Assembly: GCA_963281255.1 (NCBI GenBank)
Contig: OY725499.1
Span: forward strand, 1,620,096-1,684,095
Direction of reading: 5' to 3'
Length of the DNA: 64,000 nt
Source of the DNA: Aphrocallistes beatrix
Taxonomy: Eukaryota > Porifera > Hexactinellida > Sceptrulophora > Aphrocallistidae
Position 1 is the first letter of the stretch, and every line of letters begins with the position of its first letter. This document shows, piece after piece, positions 59 to 63,190 of the stretch. Below the pieces are notes generated by a model. That model saw nothing but the letters and a program-made list of their open reading frames with translations, did not search any database and was not told where the DNA came from. A program made the translations under genes and the position numbers.

Positions 59-1374
59 TGTCATCATCTCTTTGGATTTAGTAGAGAATCCATATTAGCA
101 CATATCAAGAATTTCAAAGTATGTAATGCTTATTTTCTTAGTTTCATCTTTATTACTCTTGTTGTATATTTGCATTCACTTTATTGTCATTCCATCTAAT
201 TGACGTCAATGACACGAATTTGAAAGTTTTCACGTAAACATCCTGGACCTGTAAGATCTGACTAATTTTATAGATTTGCTTTTCATTAGGAAATTCTTGA
301 AGAGAATGTGCGAATTGGCACATTCATTACTCCTCTACACGAGGATTTACACAAGAAGCTGAGAGTATACCATCATTATGTGCCCAACTCCCTTCTATTT
401 CAGTTTTTGAAAGATGTCAAAGAAGAGCAAATGGTAAGTCTTGCATTTTTTAAGTTGATTATTATTACACATTATTTAGTAATAACTTATATGTTCAATT
501 TTGTCTAATTAGAAAAGAGAGTTGATAGAGATACTGCTTAGCTGGACATCTGACCTCTATCCTAATTTTACAGAAATTGAGGCTGCGAGATACACACACA
601 AAGTATTGTATTTTCTGGTAAATGATGCAACCATTTTGTTGGAAAATATTACTTTAAATATATATCTAATAAATATTTTGATAGGCAATGCAATATCTTA
701 ATACGATGCTTTGGGAGACATTCGAAGAATCGATTCCAGCTCACGGTCCTGACATTCCCACTTCTCCTGAGGTGAATGTAGTAAATCAACTCTGGCAAAA
801 GAACAAATGTAATCTTTTGGGACTACCGTTCGAATCGGTAAGCAAGCAGCCGGTTAATTACAATGGACAGCCACTAAAGAAATACAAACCCTGGGAAACA
901 GAGAACATTATTCGAGATGGTAATTGCCTGTTTCGATGCCTATCCAATGTCATCACAGGGAATCAGAACAGTCACCTACAGCTCCGTACAATTATCACTC
1001 GATATATCGCAACCAAAGGTACATCACGGCTTGGTTGGTATTTCAAAACAAAACAAACAACACCTTGTGAGTACCTTCTATCAGAAAACCTAACCTTGCT
1101 TGAAGGGACATGGGGAAGTGATGTAGAAATAATGGCCGCTTCTTCTATCTTAGATGTCGATATATACATCGCCAATGATGTTTATCGAAAGGAAGGGACG
1201 TTGATTCCTGAGGTGCGTTGGAGCTTGATCAGAGCAAGTCCCAATCCAACTGCCGCAATATATACTATAACCAACTATTGTGATCATTACGAGCCTGTTA
1301 TTTCAATGCTGGACAGCCCTACCCCTACATACGGAGTTACTATATCAGACGACAAAATTTACACAGTGGAATAA
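59..1374 (+). CDS. OTU-domain cysteine protease, 3' part of a multi-exon gene
   Basis: Four exons join in one frame with every junction between codons: 59-118, 290-433, 513-617 and 685-1374. Donors are GTATGT (119), GTAAGT (434) and GTAAAT (618); acceptor AGs end at 58, 289, 512 and 684. The gene enters from the left edge, so its start is missing. Counting from the Met at 688, the last exon has an OTU fold: DGNCLFR with Asp77 and nucleophile Cys80, WGSDVEIMAAS near 142-152, and NYCDHYEPV with catalytic His200. OTU proteases remove ubiquitin or act as viral or transposon-borne proteases. The roughly 100 residues before the domain (exons 1-3, for example HEDLHKKLR and ELIEILLSWTSDL) are not a domain I recognise. 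The catalytic residues and splice sites look intact, so the gene may be active. A hammerhead ribozyme begins 40 bases after the stop. It could be a cellular gene or a captured element gene; the OTU call itself is firm. Confidence 0.8.
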
Positions 1375-1413
1375 TAAACTTTTGCGACACTTTACCACCG
1401 ATCCATCTATCTT

Positions 1414-1470
1414 AAGTGTCTTGCGTGAATGGTAACGCAACTGATGAGTCCTAGCCGGGACGAAACACAA
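1414..1470 (+). ncRNA. Hammerhead ribozyme (stem III open, type III layout)
   Basis: All conserved parts are present in order. A GUC cleavage triplet lies at 1418-1420. Stem I is UUGCGU (1421-1426) with ACGCAA (1435-1440) around an 8-base loop. The core CUGAUGA is at 1441-1447. Stem II is GUCC (1448-1451) with GGAC (1458-1461) around UAGCCG. GAAA follows at 1462-1465. Stem III is short: A1465-U1419, C1466-G1418, A1467-U1417 and C1468-G1416. Predicted self-cleavage is after C1420. Nothing in the core deviates from the consensus. It lies between the OTU stop (1374) and a hAT-like insertion (1492). Hammerheads are known from Penelope-like elements, retrozymes, satellite repeats and a few 3' UTRs; which of these applies here is not settled by the sequence. 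Confidence 0.88.
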
Positions 1471-1491
1471 AATAGAATTAGAGATGATGAA

Positions 1492-1780: not shown

Positions 1781-2572
1781 TTCTGAATTTGTCACCGATT
1801 AAGCAGTACTCTTGACTGGATCGACTGACAATCACTCTACAAGTTGAACACTTAACTGGCTACTTTTGGTCTCTCGACTTAAATTTCTCCGAGAGAAGAA
1901 GGGATGGAAACAGAATATTATACACAGCCTTCCAATGATACAATCCTAATATTCCTCACCGATAAATCCACATATACTCAAATAGACAAATTACATTGTC
2001 GAATATTCAAAAAGAGTTGATACTTTTATTTATATGCATACAATTTTATACTGTATTGATTATATTTTTCTGTGTTTGAAGTTGTTTCAATCAATTATTA
2101 TCATTTCCACTCAAGTCTATATTTATATTATGTGACGAGTTAATTTAGTTAGCAAACTTTTAAAGGGGTGCACCAGCCATCACAAGAAGGTTGGCAGAAT
2201 TTAATTAAAATCTAAAAACAAAGTTCAAATATTTACGGACAAAGTTAATTTTGTGGATATTTTACAGTATGATGAATGTCACAAGTAGCTACATGTGATT
2301 AAATGCCCTGAAGTAAGCATCATGGGAGATAGTGCTGATAAAAATGAACAAATTTATTTAATTTAAGAGCATGAGTACATTAATATATAGTGGGATGGTT
2401 GAGTTATCGTTTGAGAAATGTAATGACAGTACAATATATACAGCTTAAAATCAAGTGACATATCTCTGGTACATACAATTCAAACGTCTCATAAAGCTAT
2501 GCAGCGCCTCAAAATACAACATATAAAAATCTAATAGCACATCCCTGGTCCACACTATACAGCGCCTCAAAA
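1781..2572. other. No gene seen; AT-rich intergenic DNA
   Basis: I see no coding signal. An 18-bp direct repeat (AGCGCCTCAAAATACAAC) occurs at 2503-2520 and again at 2561-2578, just before the first TTAA-A fragment. Confidence 0.5.
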
Positions 2573-2721
2573 TACAACGAAACAGTGCCAAGAATATGAT
2601 TTATTATTACAATTATCTCAAGCTGTTCTGAGTCAGGGGCCTCAAGGAAATTTGTGGATTTTCAGGGTACTATTGCTATTTTTTGTAAATATTTGGTTCG
2701 AATATACCTAAATCAGCAGTA
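2573..2721 (+). mobile_element. TTAA-A element fragment
   Basis: This stretch matches the internal GGGGCCTCAAGGAAATTTG region of the complete TTAA-A copy at 34702-36641 (around 35850-35990). It is cut off on both sides. It is followed at 2722-2725 by TTAA and a degenerate TTAA-A left end. Confidence 0.6.
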
Positions 2722-2725
2722 TTAA

Positions 2726-5700
2726 ACGCTAGTGCCCGCGAAAAACATTACCTAACGTAAAAAAAATGGCAAATTTTTTTATTACCAATTCCATTGTATC
2801 ACTGAGTGGTCTACCATCTAATCTTACGATTTCAACGGTATTTATTTAGATTTTTATAAGGCAACCCCCTAAAGTTTGATGTTACTAAAAATCAGAAAAT
2901 TTTGGTGGTTTTTCAGCGGATTTATCAATTCGTTTCTTGCTTATTTGATATTTTTTTAATGATATGGGCCTCAAAATTGTTTTAGCCCCTTTAGACATTA
3001 TAAATCACATTAAGGAAAAAGGCATATAAAATCCAATCAAAATATCTTTATAAAGGAGTTCATTTGAATAATGCTCTGGACATGGCCAGTGTGATATCAG
3101 ATATTTAGCGACAATTGTATCTAAAATAGATTTCTGATTATTTTTTTTAAAAATTGTTCAGATCCGACCATTTGTTCGTGAGATATCGCATATTATAGGT
3201 AAATTTCGGGCACTATAGCTCTCTATGGTCCCAAAAGAAGCCGATGTCATATCTAAAAAAACTATTGAAGATATAGGATATATGATAATCTTAAATAAAA
3301 GGATATATATGATAATATATAAGTTCCTCAAACATCTTTTTGTCAAAATGTGTCTATTTCTCGACTTTTCATAGATTTTATTGTAATACAAATTCTATGG
3401 AGAACTTTGAATATATCAGAAAATGGCGAATCTAATAATGGAATATGCGTCTAAAGTAGCTATTAAAGCTATTAAGCTAAACAATCATTGCAATTATCGC
3501 AAATAATGTGTACAGAAAAATTGTAGCACTTTTCATAATTATTTTGGAAGTTCTGCCCTTTTACCTCCCAGATTCGGTCAAAAACCCCTATTTATGGTCT
3601 AAAAGGAAATATCTACCTATCTCTTAAAATATATGCCAAAATTCTTAGCTTTCAATTCCTAATATACTTTTTATAACAGTATATATATGATTCTTTGACA
3701 ATAACTGTAGTACGTTCTATGGAATGCTTAAGATTTTTATCATGTGATTACGTAGCATTTTTCGAAAATCCTAACTTGGAAACTAAAAGTCGTAGACTCT
3801 CGCTCTAACTTCCTAATATACTTTTTAGAAGCTCTTTATTCATTCTAAACCGATGGATTATACTTTGTATCGCTAGGACTATGAATTATTTTCCCAATTT
3901 GTTCAAATTGTTCGGGAATTAGGCGCCTCAAGGAAATTGGTGGATTAGCAGCATACTTTTGCTATTTTGTTTGCATTATATCTAATTCATCAGTATAAAT
4001 TCCCATGAATTATTTTATTTAGCCTTAAGGATACCGCCCGTGAAAAATCCATAGGTTTGGCTTACAGCATATATCAAGAATAGAGATATATAAGATGTTA
4101 AGCGTGGGCAGGTAGTGCAATTAAAAAATATTGAGACATGCCAAACAGTTTTTGGTTCACATTTCTAGTTTTTGAATTACAGCGTCTCAAAGTCGGTTTT
4201 TTTCGTTTTTCCCTAGCACATCTTAATGGTAAGCCCTCCTCCACTCTGTGATTTTTTTAAAGCACATGTTTGGATCAAATGCTTCGAAAATTTATTCATA
4301 GATAGTCTATCATATTTGCCACTTCATAGGACCAAAAGAAAGTTAAAATTTTAAAAATTGTAAATTTTATCGGTGTCCGAATAAAAAGGGCCAAAAAACG
4401 GCGAAAAAAGCCCGATTTTCTTTGCAAATCAGCAATAAAATCACAAATTTATAAAATATCAAAAATTGAGTGGTCCTACGCTCATCGCCTAATGATATGG
4501 AACAACTGAAATTTTCAAACCTCTATCTCAAAGCAATTTTGAGTTAAAATTTTTGAAAGACGGTCAATTTTGGAATTTTAAAGTCCCGAGATATAAGGAT
4601 TTGAAGTTTTGATGGTAAGAACGATGTAAAATGAGCTATTAACGAAAAATAAAAGCATCCATGGACATTTAATCGCGTGTATACTAATGAATTAGATGTA
4701 TTCCAACAGATTATGGTGAAAATAGCAAAATTATACTGAAAATTCACAAATTACCTTGAGGCCCCTAACCCCGAATATTTTGAACCAATTAGGGAATGTA
4801 AATCATATTCCTAGCAGTACAATGTATAATTCATCGGTTTAGAATGAGTAAAGAGCTACCAAAAAGTATATTAGGAAGTTAGAGCGAGAGTCTACGACTT
4901 TTAGTTTTCAAGTTAGGATTTTCGAAAAATGCTACGTCATCACGTGATAAAAATTTGAAACTTAGCATTCCATTCCTTGTAGTACATTTATTATTTAAGA
5001 ATCAGATATATACCGTCTTGAAAAGTATATTAGGAATTGAGAGCTAAGAATTTTGGTGTATATTTCCCGAGATATGGAGGAATCTGTTTTTGGACCATAA
5101 ATGGGGGGCTTTGACCGAAATTTGGAGATAAATGCTTTGAACTTCCAAAATAATCTTGTTGAGTGCTTCAAAGTTTCTGTATACATTGCTAGTGACTATT
5201 GCATTGTTTTTTGAGTATAATAGCTACTTTTGGGAACTTATTTCATGACAAGATTCACAATTTTCTAATATATTCAAAGTTCTCCATAGAATTTGTATTA
5301 CAACAAAAACGATGATTAGTCAAGAAATATTTACTTTTTGACAAAGAGATGTTTGAGGAACCTATATATTATCATATATATCCTTTCATTTAAGATTATT
5401 ATAGATTATATATCTTCAATAGTTTTTAAGCATTGACATCGAGCACTTTGGGGGCCATAGAGTGGTTTGATGTCCGAACTTTACCTACAATATACTATAA
5501 CTTACGAACTAATGGTCCGATCTGAACAAACTTTTTTTTAAAATGTTCAGAATTTTTTTCTATACACAATAGCTAATATCACAACGGCCATTTCCCGAGC
5601 ATTTTAGAAATGAAGTCCCTCATAAAGATATTTTCGATTGGATTTCAGGTGCCTCTTTTTCTAAATTCATCTGTTTTATAATATTTAAAGGGGCCAAAAC

Positions 5701-5985
5701 CATTTTGAGGTTCGTATAATTGAAAAAATATCAGATAAGTTAGAAAATAATTGATGAATGCGCCGCAAAATCACGAATAACTTTCCGATTTTTAGTACGC
5801 CTGAGCTTTAGGTGCCCAGTTCTACAATATTAAAATAAATACCGTCCAACAAGTACGATTAGATGGTAGACTACTCAATAATCCGATGGAATTGACACTA
5901 AAAAATTCCACAATTTTTTTTTATGTTTTGCGATGTTTTTCGAGGGCGGTATCCTTAATAGCTCATTTACATTGTTCTTAACATT
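2726..5985 (+). mobile_element. TTAA-A element, degenerate, split by a second TTAA-A copy
   Basis: The left end is diverged (GCCCGCGAAAAA near 2733-2745). The body then runs parallel to the complete copy at 34702-36641 as far as 4024. It resumes at 5959 with TAGCTCATTTACATTG, the sequence expected next in the family, and is lost near 5985. The break falls exactly at a TTAA, now present on both sides of the inserted copy (4025-4028 and 5955-5958). This shows directly that TTAA is the duplicated target. Confidence 0.7.
4029..5954 (-). mobile_element. TTAA-A element, complete, 1926 bp
   Basis: The copy is bounded by TTAA (4025-4028 and 5955-5958) with inverted ends GGATACCGCCC...GAAAAA of about 19 bp. 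It lies in reverse orientation relative to 34702-36641 and is inserted inside an older TTAA-A copy. No ORF is longer than about 67 codons and no transposase motif is visible, so it must be mobilised in trans if at all. TTAA duplication is known for the piggyBac and Kolobok superfamilies. The end sequence GGATACC does not match piggyBac ends I know, so the superfamily is left open. Confidence 0.75.
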
Positions 5986-6482: not shown

Positions 6483-6685
6483 TTAATCCGTAATCTATTA
6501 TTTCCTATATGAGAATAATACTATTCACATGTCTATTTTCAATAAATTCTGAGTTATCTAGGATTTTGTAACATTTCATTACTTCTCTATAGATCATGAT
6601 GGAATCCTAGATAACTCAGAACTTATTGAAAATAGACATGTGAATAGTATTATTCTCATATAGGAAGTAATAGTTTACGGATTAA
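6483..6685. repeat. TTAA-bounded inverted repeat with 83-bp arms
   Basis: The arms 6483-6565 and 6603-6685 are reverse complements with about four mismatches, separated by 37 bases. Both outer ends are TTAA followed by TCCGTAA. The right-hand TTAA (6682-6685) also serves as the flank of the truncated TTAA-A copy that follows. It looks like a small foldback element that also targets TTAA. Confidence 0.7.
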
Positions 6686-14781: not shown

Positions 14782-15763
14782 ATGGTTCAACTTGAAACTA
14801 GAGAGAAAGTGAAACAATATTTAACAGAAGCAAAATTTACTCCAAAAGAAATTACTAAGCTTCTTGGCGTTTCACAGGCTACAGTTTATCGTGTAATAAA
14901 GAAAATCAAGGATGAGGAGTCATTACAGCACAAAAGGGGTGCAGGGAGACCGCCTTGTAAGCGAAATGCAATTAAAAAATTTGTGGGACAGTACATTAGA
15001 CACGATTCAACTAGACCAGTACGTGAGTTGGCCTCTGTGATCTCAGACAAGATTGAATACGTTTCCAAAAGTACAGTTCATCGATGCTTAACGCATTTAG
15101 GGTACAACAACGGTTTTCCCAAGCCAGTAGCCTTATTGTCTGAAAAGAATAGGTTGAAACGAATTGAACGAGCCAAAAAGAATGAAAAAAATTGGTGGAG
15201 AAACGCATTTTTTTGCGATGAGGCATCATTCTGGCTTTTAGGTGGCAGAGTTAAGATGTGGTCAAAACAGGACCGCAAACGATTCCAACCAACAGTAAAA
15301 CACTCTGCAAAAGTTAACATATGGGCCGCATTTTCCTCCATGGGAAAAGTTTCCCTTATGCATTTTTCAACAGAATATGAATGCTCAATTATTTGTCAAC
15401 ATATTAAAGTGGCATTTACTTGTCCAAGCTAAAGTTTTTCATGGGAATAGTTGGTTCTTAATCGAGGACAACGACCCAAAACATACCTCAAAGTTGGCGA
15501 AAAAGTGGATGACCAAAAATATGCCAAACAAACTACTTGACTGGCCCAGTCAAAGCCCCGATCTTAATCCAATTGAAAATCTCTTCGCCTGGATGAAACA
15601 TCAACTAGACAGAAAGCGTCCCAAGTCAATAGAAGCCCTCAAATCCAGGATTCAAGAACTTTGGGATTTTCTAACTCCCAAATTTTTAGAACCCTACTGG
15701 AAGTCAATGCCTCGTAGGTGCAGAATGTGTGTCGAAGAAGATGGATACTTTATTAAATACTAG
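14782..15763 (+). pseudogene. Tc1-like transposase, one frameshift
   Basis: The first reading frame (14782-15432) has an N-terminal helix-turn-helix (EITKLLGVSQATVYRVIK, residues 23-40), the AT-hook-like GRPP at 55-58, a second DNA-binding region, and the first catalytic Asp in FFCDEASF (D146). A one-base change in the segment just before 15374 (CAACAGAATATG) shifts the frame. The second frame (15377-15763) continues with IEDNDPKHTSK (second Asp, residue 31) and SPDLNPIENLF (Glu67). The two acidic residues are separated by 35 residues, not the 34 usual for Tc1. The ATG at 14782 is supported because the terminal repeat and untranslated leader lie just upstream. It is a cut-and-paste transposase, now inactive because of the frameshift. 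Confidence 0.88.
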
Positions 15764-19332: not shown

Positions 19333-22300
19333 CTAATTAGGTTTTCCAAGAAAATTATATATTTGCAATAATATGAACAAAATTGTGTCTTTGGATTCCC
19401 AATAACATGTGTGTGCTGTGAGAAAATTTAAATGAGAACTTTCCAACATGCCTTCTTTTAAAGAGAAATCTAATCTTTCTATTAATCGTTCACTGAATGA
19501 AACAGTACTATCATCGTTTAATATATCTTTGGAATTAATATTTTCAGATGATATGTTCGGGTAATTTGGGGACAATTTAGGAATTATACGCGAAAACATG
19601 CTCGACTTTTTAGCTTGAGGGATTTTAGGCATATATTGACCCATAGATTGCACATGAGCTTCTTTGGAGGGCTTGGAATTGGCGCTCTCAATACCAATTG
19701 GTCGAATTTGTGAATAGATCTCACTAATAATTGGTTCAATACGATAAGTTATGGGATCTGCAGGATGAAATATGTTATAAAATCTCTTACAAACATCATA
19801 TGGAAAAAATGCCAATGTTGATTTCTTGGAGATATCAATATACTCATCGATATTACGTAGAATTAGGAAAACAGATAGTGGTGAACCAATGGCAAAGAAA
19901 TGCTCTATACTGAAAGATAGTAATCTAGAAGTACACTCTGGACTATGATATATAGAGCTGAGATGATTTGGTCTTAGTTCTTGCTCTTTTTTCCACAATT
20001 TTTCGAGACGATCTTCTAAATTAGCTATTTCCTTTTGGTTTTCTGTTAATTCTTCACTTGATTTATCATTGTCTAAAAGAAATAGGAATTTTAAAAAATA
20101 AAATTGTACTGATATTTTAATCATAAAATTGTGCTTCGGTATTTACAAAGAGTGCAGATAGAAATTTAGAAATTATTAACGCTTCATAAATTGACAATCC
20201 TTGCGACCAGAATGTCCTAAAAACTATTTTTTACATTTTTGTTTATTTTAGGCCTTTACATCCCGTGCAAATTACAAAATTTCAAATATTTCCCCAGTCG
20301 AAGTGGATGATGCTATCTGGTTAATCTATATCCTGTTCTATATTTTAAATTTACCGTACGGATTTTTGATATTGATCTTAGATTTCAATCTAGAATACAA
20401 TTTGTATTAAAATTTGTCAAAAACCTGTAAATCGCCACTCAAAGTGGTTTTCGTAATATATTTTGATGGTATACAACTTTGGAGCATAAAACGTTCGATA
20501 GGGAATCACAAAATTTGTCATATAAAAAAGTGAAACATTTTTCAACATTGATAAAATTATGTTTTTTTTAGTAATAGGTCATTTCTGTTGCATTACGGTC
20601 TATGGAGGGTAAAAATCGAAAAAAATCCAAGGAGCCAAAAGATATTAATGACATTTGAAAACCTAGGATTTACCTCATTATGTAACCGGACTATCTAAAC
20701 TTAGTAGTTATCGTGTATAGAGAACTAAAATATTTCTGCACAAGTCTAATCCAATAAGTAGATCTAGTATTAGGTAGCGTTAATGGCATATAGGAATTTT
20801 AATATCAGCGAATTAAATACACAACTAGAAGAGATATACTACTCGATGGTGGTAAAAACGCATTGGATTTAAAGTGGTTACTGGCAAGTTCCACTAGACA
20901 ATAATGTTCTCAAGAAGTCTGCATTTTCTCCAGGATATACTAGATCATGTTTATTTGAATTTAATGCAATGCTATTCGGTCTAACCAATGCCCCTGGTAC
21001 GTTTCAACGGTTAAAGAATAATGTACAGCGTGGCCTGGATGATTTCTGCTTTCGTTTGTTGACGATATTCTAATAATCTCGCATTGCTATAGACAACATA
21101 AGACTTAATAATGAGGAGTCATATAGGACTCAGACAGGTTTAACACTGAAGGAGAAATGTGTAATTGTTAAAAGCATAGTGAAATATTGGCAACTCTAAA
21201 TCAGGAGCCAAGCTGAAATTTGGTTATTATTGAATGTCTAATTCCGTTTAATGTAAAGGAAGCTAGATAAATATTCGGAATTGCAGATTCCTCTCGTCGC
21301 TTTGTTCAAAACTTCTCAGATATGTATCTCCCTTGTTTGCATTCTTAAGAAGACTAAGCTCACTTGGAATATATAACATGAAAAAATCATTCCACTTAAT
21401 TAAACATCGACTAACAACTGCTCCAATTCTTGCTTTCCATCAGTCAGTAAGTAATGTGTACTGTATACTAGGGTAGTTCGTTTTACGATATTTTTCTCAA
21501 TTTAAACAATATTATTGGGAAATTACTCAGTTTTAACCAAATTTTAAGTGTCCCGCAAGGTCCAATTCTATTTAAGGGAATTATTATAAGCGGCGTTCCT
21601 GATGTAAATAAGAGAAACTATGGAGTTTCGTCAGGCTACAAATGTTATAATTGTATATTGTAATTTGATTTAAAATGTCCTTTTAGTTATTAAATTCAGG
21701 AAATGCATATATGGAACTGAGTTCCATGGGACCCAATTGTTACTTATGCTAGTTGTAGAGTAATACTTATATGTGCATTCAATTATTCGAATTAAAGACA
21801 TTCAAATATAATTCCATTTGATGGCGAATAGACTCTTTCCTATTAAGCGATAATATAATTTATTTGTCTAAATTCAATGGTTTACGAGTTATTAGACAAT
21901 TTATCATATTGGTCACATTTGGTAATTTGTCGAATATCTCGTAAACATTTGAATTTAGACTTCGAAATTATATTGTTACTTAATAGGAAGTAGTCGATTT
22001 GCTATCAAATGTAATTATATTTGAATGTCTAGCTCTCGCGGGTCTAAGATATGACCCTAACTGACCAAAGCACGTTTCCATAGCAACACTGGAATGTAGC
22101 AACATTCCATGGAAGAATTCCCAATATTTCGTATTAACCCATTCACATCTCAATTCTATGGCTTAAATTTTATAATAAAAACACTTTACTGTGCCCTTAA
22201 ACGGCCTCTGAAATCACTAAAATGGTCACAAATATATCTAATTGCTCAGATCAACCGTTGAAAGCTAGTTTCTAGGATACTTTTGAGATGTTTACTTTAT

Positions 22301-25300
22301 GTATCTATAGTCAACATAGGTAAACAAATTGATCATCAAATTTGCTCGAAAATATGATATTCGAAATCTACACCCCGGAAAACCCCATGTCAACCGTTGA
22401 AAGCTATTTTCAAGGATATTTTTGAGATTTGTTTACTTTATGTTATCTATTGTAATCAAAAGTAAACAATTGATTATCATATTTACTCGAAAATACGATA
22501 TTCGAAATCTACACCCCTGAAAACCCAATGTCAAACATTGAAAGCTAGTGTCTAGCATATTTTTGAGATTTGTTTACTTTATGTATCTATTGCAAACAAA
22601 AGTAAACAAATTAATTATCAAATTTATTCGAAAATATGATATTCGAAATCTACACCCTTGAAAACCCCATGTTAACCGTTGGAAGCTAGTCTCTAGCATA
22701 TTTTTCAAAATTCGTCAAATGGTGTGAAAATATGGACATAATCTTTTTTATTGCCATACACTATAATACATTTAAGATATAAAACATAAGTTGTGACTTT
22801 GAAGTATTAATAACAATGACGATCTATTGTAGTGTCGTACAATGGTTTCTATTGTGATAGTGAAGCCGTACATAGTATTGTATAGAAAAGGTGTGAAAAA
22901 TTGTTTTCCATTTTTTTTGCAGAGGTGCTAAAATTTCGCTTAGATCTTAGAACTTAATCGTAGTCATATCATTTGACACCTATATGCCAATTTTCATATC
23001 TCTATGACTTGCCAATTCTTCAATCAATTCGGACAAACAAAAACAAAAAATCCTAGCGTTTTAATATACTATAAGAAATCCTGACTATCAATATATTTCG
23101 GGTCTTTATAGAAGTCTTCATCGGCGTAGCAACATCGTTTGCGATGGAGGGGCGATAACAAGCAAGGAAAAAAATTAGGTTGTCTACCCCTTTAAATACC
23201 AAAACGTATTTGAGAACCACAATGCACAACAGCGCCTAAACCACGTCACCGGAATCCACATACACAAACAGGAGATGGACAAAATCAATAGACAAGAGTT
23301 ATTGGATGAGTTTGTATCACGAAATCAGTTTAGAAAAATGTTTTTTCATTCAGCAAAGACATTAATTAGGCTATTATGTTTTTCGATTTAAATCAGCTCG
23401 TAATATTTGGGTAAAAGGGTGAAATAACATGCTACTTCATGGAGGGGCGGGGTAGGATTTTAGTAATGGCCGCCCTCCCATGGCCAAGGCATGGAGGTGC
23501 GTTGCCCCCCCCTTATTCTACGCCTATGGAAGTCTTGATCAATCCACTTGTTATTTTACGGCTCTCGCATACATTTTAGTGCTCTCAAATCGACAAAAAC
23601 TAATATTTAATAGAATTAATAACATCAAATTACACCTAATTTCTAAACCATTGAATAAAAATACATATATATTGTTAATTTGTAATTATTCATGAATCAC
23701 ACACTAAAATAGAATTTGTCCTAAACCCTACCATCCTAGCGTACCCCAGGTTGGGAACCCTTAATTTAGACACGACTCAAGGAATGGAAAAATTGTAGTT
23801 TTGATGAATAAGAGATGGCGAGGTACGCGGTAATGTAGGATGTAGTAAAATGACTAGTGATAAGTTGCCAATTGGCATAGGTTTATAATAATTAACCATA
23901 GCATTATATACATTAAGGCAATGGTTCTAATTAGTGCACTTGGACTAGGGATTGGCTAGATCAGTCAATTTTGATTTCCTAAAAATTGTTTGATTATGCT
24001 AGCATATAGCTTTGTACTAGCTTTGTACATTTTATAATGATTTTTTTCATTAATTCTACATCGATTTACAGCAATATGTTGGATGATTGCACTGTAGACA
24101 ACCTGAAACTATCCGCAAAGTTCAAGGCTGATGCTAGTCATAGGGAGGTTAGTGGGACTGAAAGTGGCTCTAACTCTGTTGGTGCCGTAGAAGATGTCGG
24201 AGCAATGTAGAGCTTTCAGTCATGATTAATTTCTCAGTCATTTATGTTGGATTGTTAGGCATATGGGCATGAATAAAATATATATAAGTGTTGGGAAGTA
24301 TCTGCCATTCACAGATATCCGGATACGAATATTTATTTTTTTTGAGCTCCGAAACCAACTGACAACATTTCTGCGGGATAAAAAAAACAAATGGGCGGAA
24401 CTTTTTCTAGATATAAACTGGAATGCAAAGCTGGCATTTCTATCTGATATATTCTCAAAGCTTAATGAGCTCAACAGGTCAATGCAAGGTAGGATGGCAA
24501 CTAATTTTGTAACAGCCAACGAGATTGACGGTTTTAAACAAAAGTTAGTGGCAAAATCGGGTCTCTCGAGGATGTTACAATAAGTTTCCAAATTTATCGG
24601 AAACAATTGATAGTGAAAGTGGACTTGATGCTACTGCTTTAAGAAATATCACAGCTGAACATTTGAAATCACTAGCTGAGCGCTTTGAATTTTATATCCC
24701 CAAAGAACAAGATCCTAGAGATGGAAACGGTTGGATCTGTAATCCGTTTTTGCCATTGAAGGACGATTTGAATGTTTATTTAGAAGAAAAATTATTATCC
24801 CTGGCTGGGGATGAAGGATTAAAAAATATTTTTATAGTGAAATAACACTCGCTGAATTTTGGATTTTTGAAGGTTAGACCAGAATATCCAGAACTTTGTG
24901 AATTGGCTCGGAAAGTTATTCTCCCACTTCCATCTACTTACCTTTATGAGATGGGGTTTTATACCATAAGCATTATAAAAACAAAGCATAGAAATGCTCT
25001 GGATGTCAATAATGAATGATTTTATAATATAAAACACAATTGATAATTTACACGTGTTATGTCTCTTATATATATTAATATAATACAATAATAATAATAA
25101 TAACAAGCGCGCTTCGCTTGCTTGCGCTGCGGGGCTGGCGGACACTTTGTGTCCGCCGGATGCGCCCTGCGGCCGCCTGGGGTCACATTGATTAATTATA
25201 AGGGAGATAGCATCTCTAAATACATCTGTACTACTGTTATAATCGATATCGCACGAAAAATCACCAAATTTGTCAATTTTTAAAATTTTGATGCGTAATG

Positions 25301-41426: not shown

Positions 41427-41484
41427 CTTGTGTTTCGTCTCGGCTCAGACTCGTCAGTTGCGCTGCCTTTCTCGCAATATACTT
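41427..41484 (-). ncRNA. Hammerhead ribozyme, second copy, probably impaired
   Basis: On the minus strand, stem I is UUGCG (41477-41473) with CGCAA (41462-41458). The core CUGACGA is at 41457-41451, allowed because the fifth core base is variable. Stem II is GUCU (41450-41447) with AGAC (41440-41437) around GAGCCG. GAAA lies at 41436-41433. Relative to 1414-1470 the stem II pair C-G has become U-A, a compensatory change. The cleavage triplet is AUA (41480-41478) instead of GUC, which breaks the C-G pair next to the site, so activity is doubtful. Flanking words (CCATCT, CAAGT, CGAAACACAA) are also shared with the first copy. It lies about 650 bases downstream of the CXC-like relic gene on the same strand. 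Confidence 0.8.
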
Positions 41485-42343: not shown

Positions 42344-43649
42344 CGAGAGGCACTCGAAAAGTTTTGACGTTCACCTACATATCAAATAGTTAATATGAAG
42401 ATTTATATAACATTTTTTCAAAATACTCTCCATGAGAGTCTATACATTTTTTCATTCTACTAAACCACTTCTGAAAACACATTTTCCACTCATCTTTGGG
42501 TATGGCTTCGATTACCTTGAAAAGTGCCCCCGCCAGCTCCTCATTCGATGAAAATCTCCTTCCACGCAACTCATTCTTAATCGTAGGGAACAGCCAGAAG
42601 TCGCAAGGGGCTAAGTCTGGACTGTACGGAGGATAGGCAGTGTTCAAGTCCACAATCTTCCAAAAACTCGCGAGTTCTGAGTGCGGTGTGAGATGATGCG
42701 TTATCATGATGGAGCAAAATTCCCCTGAAACCCGTCTTTTCACGCTGAGAATTTATTTCTGTGATGACTTTGGGGAGGCATACTGTGGTGTACCAATCGG
42801 CAGTAACTGTTTTTCTATCCTCAAGCGCCACAGCTGCTACAAACCCACTGGATCTGAAAAAAATTGCCCACATTTGCTTCCCTACAGATTTCGCCCTTCG
42901 TACTTTTGTTGGAGGTGGAGCATCTTCCACCCACTCCTTCGATTGTTGTTTTGTTTCCGGATCATAATGGTTTATCCATGTTTCATCCCCTGTAAGAATA
43001 TCAGAAACAGCCCTTGCAGTTCCATTATCAAATCTTTTGAGCATAATTTTGCAAAAGTCAACTCGGGCCGATTTTTGCTCTAAAGTCAAAGAATGGGGGA
43101 TCCAGCGGGCACACAACTTTCGTAGACAAAGTTCTTTATGTATAATGACATTAATAGTCCCCGATGAGAGGTCAGTTTCATGCTCTATCTGAGCGTATGT
43201 AACATGAGAATCCTGGATCACTAGTTCCAATACTTGATCCACATTTTGTTCATTGTGGAAAACACTCGGCCTCCCTGCACGAGGAGCATCCTCTAGAACG
43301 AAGTTCCCATGAGTAAATTCTCTGTACCATCGCTCAACTGTACTCAAAGAAGGAGCAACATCTGGGAAATGTTCCTGTAAAGTTTCATGGATCTCCTGCC
43401 TCGTCTTTTGCATTTTGAATAAAATCAAAATCATTGCACGAAAATCTCGTCTTGTGAAATCTGAGGATGATGTAAGCAAGTTAGAAGCCATGCAGACTAA
43501 CAAGTCAAATATTTCTGGAAGTATAAAAGATAAATGAATGAAATTTTCAGTGTATACTAATAACCGCAGATTGAAACGAATTAGCAATATATCTTTCTTC
43601 TAGATTAATGGTTTCATAGCAAACGTCAAAACTTTTCGAGTGCCCTACG
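42344..43649 (-). mobile_element. mariner transposon, complete ends
   Basis: The inverted ends contain GGCACTCGAAAAGTTTTGAC at both sides (42349 on, and ending about 43645 in reverse complement). They are flanked by TA (42342-42343 and 43650-43651). The element is 1306 bp, the usual mariner size. It sits exactly between codons for WMTGL and PAPNAII of the surrounding relic gene. Confidence 0.85.
42390..43491 (-). pseudogene. mariner transposase, one frameshift
   Basis: The likely start is the Met at 43491 (MASNLLTSS). The N-terminal helix-turn-helix region (RDFRAMILILFKMQKTRQEI) and EDAPRAGRPS linker lead to TGDETWINHYDPE (first catalytic Asp) and LLHHDNASSHTA (second Asp). A one-base shift near 42650 moves the frame, which continues PPYSPDLAPCDFWLFPTIK (third Asp), RGRRFSSNEEL and WFSRMKKCIDSHGEYFE. 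The DDD triad is intact, so inactivation is by the frameshift only and appears recent. Confidence 0.88.
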
Positions 43650-46089: not shown

Positions 46090-47510
46090 AACGAATAATT
46101 TCTCAAATGCATCCTAAAATATAATATTCGAAATCTACAGCACTAAAAACCGTCAGCCGAAGCTAGTCTCTAGCCTATTTTTTTAATTTGTTTACTTTAT
46201 GTATCTATTGTAAACAAAGGTAAACAAATTGATCATCAAATTTACTCGAAAATATGATATTCGAAATCTACACCCCTGAAAACCCCATGTCAACCGTTGA
46301 AAGCAAGTTTCTAGCATATTTTTGAGATTTATTTGCTTTATGTATCTATTGTAAACAAAAGTAAACAAATTAATTATCAAATTTACTCGAAAATATGATA
46401 TTAGAAACCTACACCCCTGGAAACCCCATGTCAACCGTTGAAAGCAAGTTTCTAGCTTATCTTTGAGATTTGTTTACTTTATGTATCTATTGTAAACAAA
46501 AGTAAACAAATTAATTATCAAACTTACTCGAAAATATGATATTCGAAATTTATACCCCTAAAAACTTGTTGGAAGCTAGTCTCTAGCACTTTTTTCAAAA
46601 TTCGTCAAATGGTGCGAAAATATGTATATAAAGGTGTGAAAATATGCACATAATATTTTTTATTGCCATGCACTATAATATATAAGATATCAAACATAAG
46701 TTGTAGCTTTGAAGTATTGATAACAATGACGATATATTGTAGTGTCGTACAATGGTTTCTATTGTAATAGTGCAGTCATTTATTTTGTATAGAAAAGGTG
46801 TGAAATGTTTCTATTTTTTTCAGAGGTGTGAACATTTCGCTTAGATCTTAGAACTTAATCGTAGTCATATCATTTGACACCTACATGCCAATTTTCACAT
46901 CTCTATGAATTCCCAATTCTTCAATCTATTCGGGCAAACACACACACAAAAAAATCCTAGCATTTTAATATATAAGATATATACGGTGTATATAGTACTA
47001 TCTTATATACACGTATTAAAACACCAGGATTTTGTTTGTTTGTCCGAATTGATTGAAGAATTGGCAAGTCGTAGAGATATGAAAATTGGCATGTAGGTGT
47101 CAAAAGATATGACTACGATTAAGTTCTAAGATCTAAGCGAAATTTTCACACCTTTTCTATACAGCATAAATGACTAAGCTATCACAATAGAAATCATTGT
47201 ACGACACTACAATAGATTGTCATTGTTATTAAGCCACAACTTATGATTGATATCTTAAATATATTATAGTGTATAGCAACAAAAAAGATTATGTGTATAT
47301 TTTCACACCTTTATATACGTATTTTCATACCATTTGACGAATTTTGAAAAATATGCTAGAGACTAGCTTCCAACGGGTGACATTGGGTTTATAGGGGTCT
47401 AGATTTCGAATATCATATTTTCAGATCTATATGATAAATTATTTGTTACTTTTGTTTATATTAGATACATAAAGTAAACAAATCTAAACATTTGTTAGAA
47501 ACTTGCTTTC
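46090..47510. repeat. SAT141 array and its inverted partner
   Basis: 46120-46580 holds about 3.5 units (period 141 bp, CAACCGTTGAAAGC at 46291 and 46432). 46590-46970 is the associated tail. From 47020 the same tail and then one or more units follow in reverse, so the whole is a large palindrome centred near 47000. The right arm passes into the Merlin relic at 47531. Confidence 0.72.
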
Positions 47511-61800: not shown

Positions 61801-63190
61801 ATGAAGGCCCAGGAAAAGAATTAAATCAAGATAAAGGGACTCTTTGAAGCTGGGATAACAAAGGCGACTGAAATATCGTGACGCATCGCTATAGCCGAGC
61901 GGACAGTCGATCGTGTTTTGAAGTCAATTCCTGACAAAAAGAGCTTGACTCATAAGAAAGGAGCAGGTGGACCTCCTAAATTACACAAAGCCGTTAGGAA
62001 CCGGATTATGGCACTCGTTCACAATCCAATGATCACCCTGAATGAATGCCGAGCAAAATTGAGTACTCCAGTTGCCAAAAGTACACTATCGGAGGAAGTG
62101 AAGAGGAGAGGCCTACAATATCGTCAGGCAGTCAGAATTCCCGCCTTGTCACCTCTCAATATTGCTAAGCGAATGGAATGGTGTAGGAAAATGAGGGCTC
62201 AAGACTGGTCTAGGGTGTTCTTTACTAATGAATGCTCCATATGGATGAATACTGGTAAGATCTATGTATGGACAAAGAAAGGACAGCCCATCAACCGGCC
62301 AAATTTCAAACATCCATCGAAGCTCCATATTTGGGATGGGATTTCGGTAATGGGTAAAACGAACCTCAAAACTTTCACCGAAAACTTCAACCAGGAACGA
62401 TATAAATTGTTTTAAATGAGTGTCTTGTATATGAAGCTAATGCCTTACAGGGATTCCAGAACTGGTAAAAAAAGTTGTACGGATTTTTTTGCCAACCGTT
62501 TACTTGCTACTTTATTTTTTCCTCCATTTTAGATTTTGTTTTACTCACTCACTACTTTTTTTTACTTGCTACTTATTCTTTGGCCAGCATTTAGTTGGCG
62601 TGAGGAGAAGAAATAATTGATTGTGCATTATAAGACCGAAACGAGGGCGCATCGAGCGATTTGCAGAAATATTTGAGCATTTCAGAATCATAATTTTCTT
62701 AATTTAACCATGTCCATTTCATCAGGTGTCCGGAAAATTTACTTAATACTTTTTTTTGCTGGACATCCAGAATATTTACTTACTACCTTTAATTTTCCTC
62801 CAAAATAATTAAAAATGGAGTAAGTAGCAAATGAAAAAAAAGGAGCAAGTTAATACCTGATGCCTTATATGGAAATCAATGGTTATTGCAAGAGGATAAC
62901 AACCCTATCCACACTGGAAATGCGGCAAGGGCATGGAAACAGGAATTTGTCCCCAACCTGATCGACTGGCATTCCAATAGCCCCGATCTCAAACCCAATT
63001 GAGAATCTTTGGGCTGTAATAAAGAAAATACCCCTCAAAAAGAGATTCACCTGCACAAATGAGTTGAAGAAAGGTATTTTCGAGATATGGTACACATTTA
63101 ATCCAGACTTTTTACAGCCATTTTGTCTAAGCATGGACAAAAGAATTCGGTTATGTGTCAAAGCAAATGGCAAAAAATTGAATAATAAAA
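61801..63190 (+). pseudogene. Tc1-like transposase relic with an insertion
   Basis: The frame begins MKAQEKN at 61801 and has two in-frame stops (near 61822 and 61879). It continues as AERTVDRVLKSIPDK and GAGGPPKL (61918 on), AKSTLSEEVKRRGLQYRQ, RVFFTNECSIWMNTGK and WTKKGQPINRP with GISVMGKTNLKTF (to 62415). The first catalytic Asp is Asn here (FFTNECS). An insertion of about 400 bp separates this from ALYGNQWLLQEDNNPIHTGN (62855 on, second Asp present), then SPDLKPN and, after a one-base shift, IENLWAVIKKIPLKKR (Glu present). It ends near 63190. Its terminal repeats were not identified. It is dead. Confidence 0.82.
62452..62853. mobile_element. Small element with TTTACTTGCTACTTTTTT-type ends inside the Tc1 relic
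   Basis: The word ATGCCTTA from the transposase gene occurs on both sides (62441-62452 region and 62860 region), as expected for a target duplication. Inside, TACTTGCTACTTTATTTTTT and GGAGTAAGTAGCAAATG face each other. The same sequence (GTCCAGGAAATTTACTTGCT, CCATCCAGAATATTTA) lies in the Tc1 relic at 53814-55933. Boundaries are approximate. Confidence 0.5.

Follow-up and report, generated by a model that had tools for sequence, protein, structure and literature searches.

Hammerhead ribozymes of type III, gathered in Rfam as RF00008, are known from plant satellite RNAs and LTR retrozymes. Where eukaryotic mobile elements carry hammerheads, the known cases are retroelements and circular RNAs, in which the ribozymes process RNA intermediates. 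According to passages of two articles (PMC7761336, PMC6431247), the hammerheads of Penelope-like elements, Terminons and animal retrozymes are of type I, and often minimal or tandem. Type III hammerheads are described in animals as well, in passages on the 3' UTR of mammalian Clec2 (PMC6155905) and on HDV-like RNAs of toad and termite (PMC7761336). The Clec2 motif is discontinuous, has a very large helix I and belongs to a host gene, and a part in the choice of polyadenylation site has been suggested for it (PMC6155905). Ginger1 transposons, as presented in passages of Bao et al. 2010 (PMC2836005), have inverted repeats of 40-270 bp, a 4-bp duplication, a CCGG or CCGT target, a 5' TGTNR end and a C-terminal OTU or Ulp1 domain; the word "ribozyme" is absent from the main text of that paper. 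Passages of a review that names both report hammerheads in Terminons and retrozymes and discuss Ginger separately (PMC6431247). Within the open-licence literature, represented by titles, the starts of abstracts and passages, no hammerhead was found reported from a cut-and-paste transposon, and of the papers listed in a loose search for sponge or placozoan hammerheads none contains the term "hammerhead ribozyme".

The window analysed here, a stretch of 64,000 nucleotides from the sponge Aphrocallistes beatrix, contains a motif that is very probably a ribozyme belonging to a Ginger1-like transposon; its position, predicted structure, covariation and copies, and the ends of the transposon, were obtained by computation. 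It has the core, the three helices, the open stem III and the NUH site of the type III hammerheads in RF00008, and differs from them in scoring below the Rfam cut-off, in being carried by an animal DNA transposon, in loops between which three Watson-Crick pairs could form (GGC/GCC and variants) and, in one family of relatives (family C, below), in an extra U preceding stem II. With the hammerheads of Penelope-like elements, Terminons and retrozymes, as the passages cited above describe them, it has in common that the carrier is an animal mobile element, whereas here the layout is type III, the ribozyme is single and the carrier moves by cut and paste. The type III-like form and the position in a 3' UTR recall Clec2. 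The original prediction had suggested an undescribed animal lineage of type III ribozymes; Clec2 and the HDV-like RNAs show that the type itself has animal precedents (PMC6155905, PMC7761336).

The hammerhead motif and its carrier transposon

The type III hammerhead lies on the forward strand at 1416-1468, and its invariant core, read from the sequence, is complete. With a caret at the predicted cut, it runs GTGT/C^TTGCG-TGAATGGTAA-CGCAA/CTGATGA/GTCC-TAGCCG-GGAC/GAA/ACAC. Stem I (UUGCG/CGCAA) has 5-6 bp, stem II (GUCC/GGAC) 4-5 bp and stem III (GUGU/ACAC) 4 bp, around the core CUGAUGA and GAAA; the base preceding the cut, C17, ends a GUC triplet. The structural descriptor, the Rfam match and the fold all leave stem III open and cap stems I and II. 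The complete core with its helices, the cleavage site after a GUC and the type III layout with open stem III are thus present as first proposed. The features are collected in Table 1.

Table 1. Ribozyme and transposon features in the window, with positions counted along the window.
Feature	Position	Strand	Basis
Type III hammerhead ribozyme, predicted cleavage after 1420	1416..1468	+	sequence, Rfam, descriptor
Stem III 5' strand, partner 1465-1468	1416..1419	+	descriptor, covariation
Stem I hairpin, loop GGU at 1431-1433 can pair with loop II	1421..1440	+	descriptor, covariation
CUGAUGA core	1441..1447	+	sequence
Stem II hairpin, loop GCC at 1454-1456	1448..1461	+	descriptor, covariation
GAA core and stem III 3' strand ACAC	1462..1468	+	descriptor
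Second class-B ribozyme copy, stem III A.C mismatch, fails descriptor	41430..41482	-	
ORF piece 5' of OTU exon	290..505	+	0 Pfam matches; exon limits by eye
OTU-like cysteine protease ORF, 228 aa, stop 1372-1374	688..1374	+	Pfam PF02338 E 2.2e-9; PDB 4bop E 2.5e-6
AATAAA overlapping OTU stop codon, 47 nt before cut	1373..1378	+	
Right terminal inverted repeat, 87 bp, of 5,838-bp transposon	2498..2584	.	
GTGC target-site duplication; partner directly precedes left repeat	2585..2588	.	

An Rfam scan of the 64-kb window at the gathering cut-off gave no match. Aligned end to end with window positions 1413-1471, Hammerhead_3 (RF00008) scores 35.5 bits against a gathering cut-off of 48.5, which is a curation threshold and not a property of ribozymes; the E value is 3e-6 over 301 bases and 6.3e-4 over the whole window. 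Of the Rfam support for which the original prediction had looked, a sub-threshold Hammerhead_3 match was therefore obtained and one above the cut-off was not. The ribozyme reading stands despite the missed cut-off because the covariation and conservation across copies, described below, outweigh it.

The minimum free energy fold of 1408-1474 is the hammerhead, at an unremarkable energy (z -1.25; 21 of 200 shuffles fold equally well). In longer transcript context the complete ribozyme is retained in the minimum free energy fold of none of the four copies tested, and in the window copy stems I and II alone survive. A purpose-written structural descriptor found one match in the 64-kb window, with a score of 14.5; in 40 dinucleotide shuffles, searched on both strands, three matches reach 9, one reaches 13 and none reaches 14. 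A chance match to the hammerhead pattern, which the low Rfam score and the ordinary fold energy would allow, is refuted by these shuffles, by the 62 related places in the genome against none for the reversed pattern and by the covariation among copies, and we give it practically no probability, in agreement with the earlier judgement that chance was very unlikely.

The predicted cut follows the stop codon of an OTU-protease ORF at a distance of 46 nt. This ORF is probably the final coding exon of a transposon gene, and the ORF piece at 290..505 probably contains an earlier exon of that gene. The DNA around the motif, taken for intergenic in the original prediction, is therefore that of a transposon just behind its coding sequence. 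Upstream of the window (L065) an H2C2 zinc finger (PF17921, E 1.3e-12) matches above the cut-off and an rve integrase core (E 7e-7), split between exons, below it, so that H2C2, rve core and OTU follow in that order; an E motif and a GPY/F-like stretch were recognized in the integrase by eye, and we infer that the OTU domain is spliced onto it. No reverse transcriptase was found in the scanned ORF pieces of the element. The window OTU protein resembles 39 entries in the protein database, most of them nameless, including two from freshwater snails at 34-38% identity. Three Frizzled matches point to an animal as host.

The left inverted repeat starts with TGTTTCG at position 1616842 of contig C13, about 3.25 kb ahead of the window, which gives a transposon of 5,838 bp with inverted repeats of 87 bp and GTGC flanking both ends. 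Its closest copy, on contig C2, is 5,868 bp long, shares its ends and is flanked by GGCC on either side, and a more distant one, L061, starts with TGTTGCG and has GTAC on both sides. All three copies read at both ends thus show 4-bp duplications, and none has the Ginger1 target CCGG/CCGT. The 5' end TGTTT of the window element and the C2 copy is unlike TGTNR, which TGTTG of L061 fits. In a Gypsy-type integrase with zinc finger, DDE and GPY/F-like motif, in the OTU domain, in inverted repeats with 4-bp duplications and in that no reverse transcriptase was found, the element agrees with Ginger1 as the cited passages describe it; it differs in its duplications, in its TGTTT end and in the presence of a ribozyme. 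The carrier is a cut-and-paste DNA transposon close to Ginger1, filed as Ginger1-like because the target sites differ and the window element does not end in TGTNR. An LTR retrotransposon was considered and rejected on account of the inverted repeats with 4-bp duplications and the scanned pieces free of reverse transcriptase, and with this the comparison to animal retroelements, in which the original prediction had framed the motif, does not apply to the carrier.

Copies, structural families and selection on the RNA

The original prediction had pointed to further genomic copies and to covariation among them, and both were found. Places matching, with up to two mismatches, a pattern built from relatives are referred to as class B; the 100.5-Mb host genome has 62 of them and none for the reversed pattern. 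CTGANGA and GAAA are kept in 58 of the 62, and 47 pass the whole descriptor, with A (44) or C (3) before the cut.

The OTU protein occurs at 151 or more genome places, 150 of which are among the matches listed. About 600 bases were read behind 40 copies, taken first from the highest-ranking matches and after that to widen the spread; the sample includes some near-copies, as well as L077, for which a class-B match had been established beforehand. An intact hammerhead follows 15 of the 40 and a degenerate one three (L073, L074 and L077); in the approximately 600 bases behind the other 22 no hammerhead was found, so the transposon persists without the ribozyme. A search for other ribozymes behind OTU, with Rfam at E 0.5, had no match in 18 of the 22 ribozyme-less copies or in L073 and L077.

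Three further structural families account for the 15 intact hammerheads. Family B' (L066-L069) has UUACG/CGUAA in stem I and loops GGG/CCC; family D (L080-L082) has GYUGGC/GCCAGC in stem I and loops CUA/UAG; and family C (L085-L088, L091-L093, L102) has a nine-pair stem III and the extra U ahead of stem II. A descriptor that allows one extra base scores all eight family C loci at 18 to 19, matches none of 25 ribozyme-less or degenerate loci, and in 40 shuffles of the window yields one match at 9 and none at 11. When nine loci of these families were searched with Rfam at E 0.5, L066 (32.9 bits) and L080 (25.5 bits) matched, and L082 and the six family C loci did not; family C rests, therefore, on its core and pairing. 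Genome-wide, B' has four places, C 15 (up to two mismatches) and D 24 (up to three), with no match to any of the controls, which brings the four families to 105 places in the host genome, at up to 2-3 mismatches.

Compared with the 150 listed OTU matches, 58 of the 105 ribozyme places have OTU upstream on the same strand, at no more than 370 bp (26/62 in B, 4/4 in B', 10/15 in C and 18/24 in D), and within 2.5 kb none has it downstream or on the other strand. With flanks of 1.5 kb, an integrase, OTU or L064-type ORF was found upstream of 27 of 30 class-B loci, the other three being L035, L036 and L059; several of the OTU-less ribozyme places are, for this reason, shortened or different copies of such transposons. 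The L064-type ORF (L064:5956-7287, 444 aa) stands in place of OTU in ribozyme-bearing elements. It has a sub-threshold zinc-ribbon match in Pfam and none in PDB; a USP-like identity, suggested by a ubiquitin-protease look by eye, was dropped, as neither Pfam nor PDB supports it.

Pairing was assessed in an alignment of 28 sequences, namely L066 and 27 of the 50 distinct class-B sequences, hand-picked for the main variants. Over the hammerhead and the loop-loop contact, 87.6% of the cells are paired against 80.6% in shuffles, a percentage that would fall if the sequences left out, among them five with a mutated core or a changed neighbouring base (L077, L122, L124, L130 and L132), were included. 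Cells changed on both sides number 40 against 11.2, and the covariation score is 0.238 against 0.116; for each of the three measures none of 500 shuffles, which ignore the relatedness among the sequences, reaches the observed value. With the structure slid by 1-3 columns, 10 cells at most are changed on both sides. The signal is weaker in the number of pairs in which both sides change (9 against 6.0, reached by 14 of 500 shuffles) and in further pair types (20 against 17.9, reached by 89 of 500). Pairing between columns 21-23 and 45-47 is present in 96.4% of the cells, and column pair 23/45 appears as CG in 22 sequences, UA in three, UG in two and GC in one; these columns fit a putative contact between loops I and II.

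Between the window element and its B1, B2 and B4 relatives, and among those relatives, the 53 nt of the ribozyme are 83-91% identical, against 29-45% for third codon positions and 38-67% for amino acids. Because the paired positions covary and the identity of the ribozyme is far above that of third codon positions, it seems to be under selection as a component of a DNA transposon rather than of a retroelement.

A tree of 33 OTU proteins, rooted at its midpoint for drawing only, has ribozyme carriers on both sides of its deepest split. The ribozyme label requires seven changes, six of them forced by well supported branches, and the ribozyme is therefore either an old device that was often lost or one that was regained. 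B2 elements, with OTU, and B3 elements, with the other ORF, have in common a block of 127 nt around the ribozyme at about 91% identity, beyond which the 3 kb compared align just in weaker repeats further down; likewise, several family C pairs align over only 100-130 nt around the ribozyme, at 88-93%. As these blocks align alone, the ribozyme unit has a history of its own, through strong constraint or through exchange.

Other hammerheads and repeats in the genome and the window

A second group of type III hammerheads was observed in the host genome (L001-L017, L020, L023 and L024), with 12 matches above the Rfam cut-off. It lies partly in short dispersed units, including one of about 137 bp common to L002, L004 and others, and the L001/L009 hammerhead is near a reverse-transcriptase-like stretch (RVT_1, E 2.8e-4, below the cut-off); the group may be retrozyme-like. 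A search for type I hammerheads had no match in the host genome and equally none in the control genomes, and is thus uninformative. Four class-B hammerheads with altered stem I (L035, L036, L111 and L112) lie within 0.4 Mb of contig C1, at 11.18-11.58 Mb; no transposon protein was found within 1.5 kb of L035 and L036, and the cluster is possibly a local copy retained by the host.

Directly behind the transposon, window positions 2611-5968 hold long imperfect inverted repeats that may represent a fold-back element, with arms as long as 262 nt. A near-perfect palindrome at 6515-6653, which scores below the cut-off for MIR6288 on both strands, is probably a small inverted-repeat transposon. Arrays of what appears to be the same 141-bp tandem repeat lie 24 kb apart at 22251-22705 and 46160-46565, and the ORFs at 14782-15432, 42577-43587 and 61918-62415 are similar to mariner/Tc1 transposases.

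Possible roles of the ribozyme

Across copies with a readable stop codon, the predicted cut follows it at 46-190 nt: 46 nt in the window, 57 in B', 71 in two B4 copies, 81-97 in C, 87-93 in D, 113 in B2, 132-165 in B1 (four of five copies read) and 190 in B3. The figures for L057 (198) and L051 (317), with broken frames, are not counted from a true stop. Of the 40 sampled OTU copies, the 15 with an intact ribozyme all lack AATAAA and ATTAAA between stop and cut. Two of 15 class-B copies, the window copy (L058) and L018, have such a signal in the 250 nt preceding the cut; both belong to the window's subfamily, and their AATAAA is 36-47 nt from the cut. The spacer between stop and ribozyme is poor in G and rich in C in eight of nine B and B' copies (6-15% G, 29-38% C), L060 with 21% G being the exception, and 14 stretches behind ribozyme-less OTU genes are unlike it (7-20% C, 29-47% T). 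GTGAGT, noticed by eye downstream of the ribozyme in several class-B copies and in the L066 group, was considered as a general splice donor and dropped, as it is broken in some B copies and absent by eye in families C and D.

Since cut-and-paste elements move without an RNA intermediate, a ribozyme kept in one would have to act on gene expression or transcription. The best explanation, to which we give roughly even chances, is that the transposon-borne ribozyme cuts the transposase/OTU message behind its stop codon. The transcript would fold the ribozyme and cut itself after 1420, shortly 3' of the stop. From the geometry of stop, cut and signal, cleavage would deprive the transposase message of its poly(A) site in most of the copies examined: the cut would come before any canonical poly(A) signal in most relatives examined and leave the coding RNA without a tail. 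Such a tail-less, dampened mRNA would keep transposase output low, as a built-in brake on transposition. This mechanism we propose tentatively, at somewhat less than even probability; the AATAAA that precedes the cut in the window's own subfamily, and the loss of the complete fold in longer context, count against it.

In a co-transcriptional cleavage element one would expect the cut to follow a poly(A) signal, and that AATAAA, together with the location of the ribozyme between the last exon and the right transposon end, would suit a role in 3'-end formation or termination, in which the cut admits a 5'-3' exonuclease and transcription stops ahead of the right inverted repeat, sparing transposase binding. 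We regard this as unlikely, since the other families examined have no canonical poly(A) signal between stop and cut, and the right end is not close, at 1.1 kb from the ribozyme in the window element and about 2.4 kb in L061. The blocks common to otherwise divergent elements, both B2 with B3 and the family C pairs, and the many OTU copies without a ribozyme would also be expected if the ribozyme block were a passenger, inherited or swapped by recombination and of no function to the transposon. The compensatory changes, the retained core and a conservation far exceeding that of third codon positions oppose such hitch-hiking, as does the arrangement wherever OTU was found nearby, with the ribozyme behind it on the same strand in 58 of 58 cases, and it appears improbable. 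Circularisation of element RNAs, as in retrozymes, has a parallel in the type III hammerheads in short dispersed repeats of the same genome. The elements at L061, L062, L063 and L064, however, each have one class-B ribozyme in 10 kb, and the terminal repeats are inverted, not direct, and flanked by 4-bp duplications; the scanned pieces without reverse transcriptase, with the type III layout, set the window element apart from Penelope-like elements and Terminons as well. The production of circular RNAs is accordingly very unlikely. We think that a brake on transposase output is the most likely role, with termination second.

Taken as a whole, and more tentatively still than the brake itself, the data suggest a cut-and-paste lineage that may regulate itself by a catalytic RNA severing the tail of the transposase message behind the stop codon, a device that was either retained or gained anew, in four or more structural forms, as silent positions neared saturation. 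The transposons offer natural ribozymes behind stop codons, in many related copies with or without the ribozyme, and the long-standing question of how genomic hammerheads benefit their carriers becomes directly testable with reporters.
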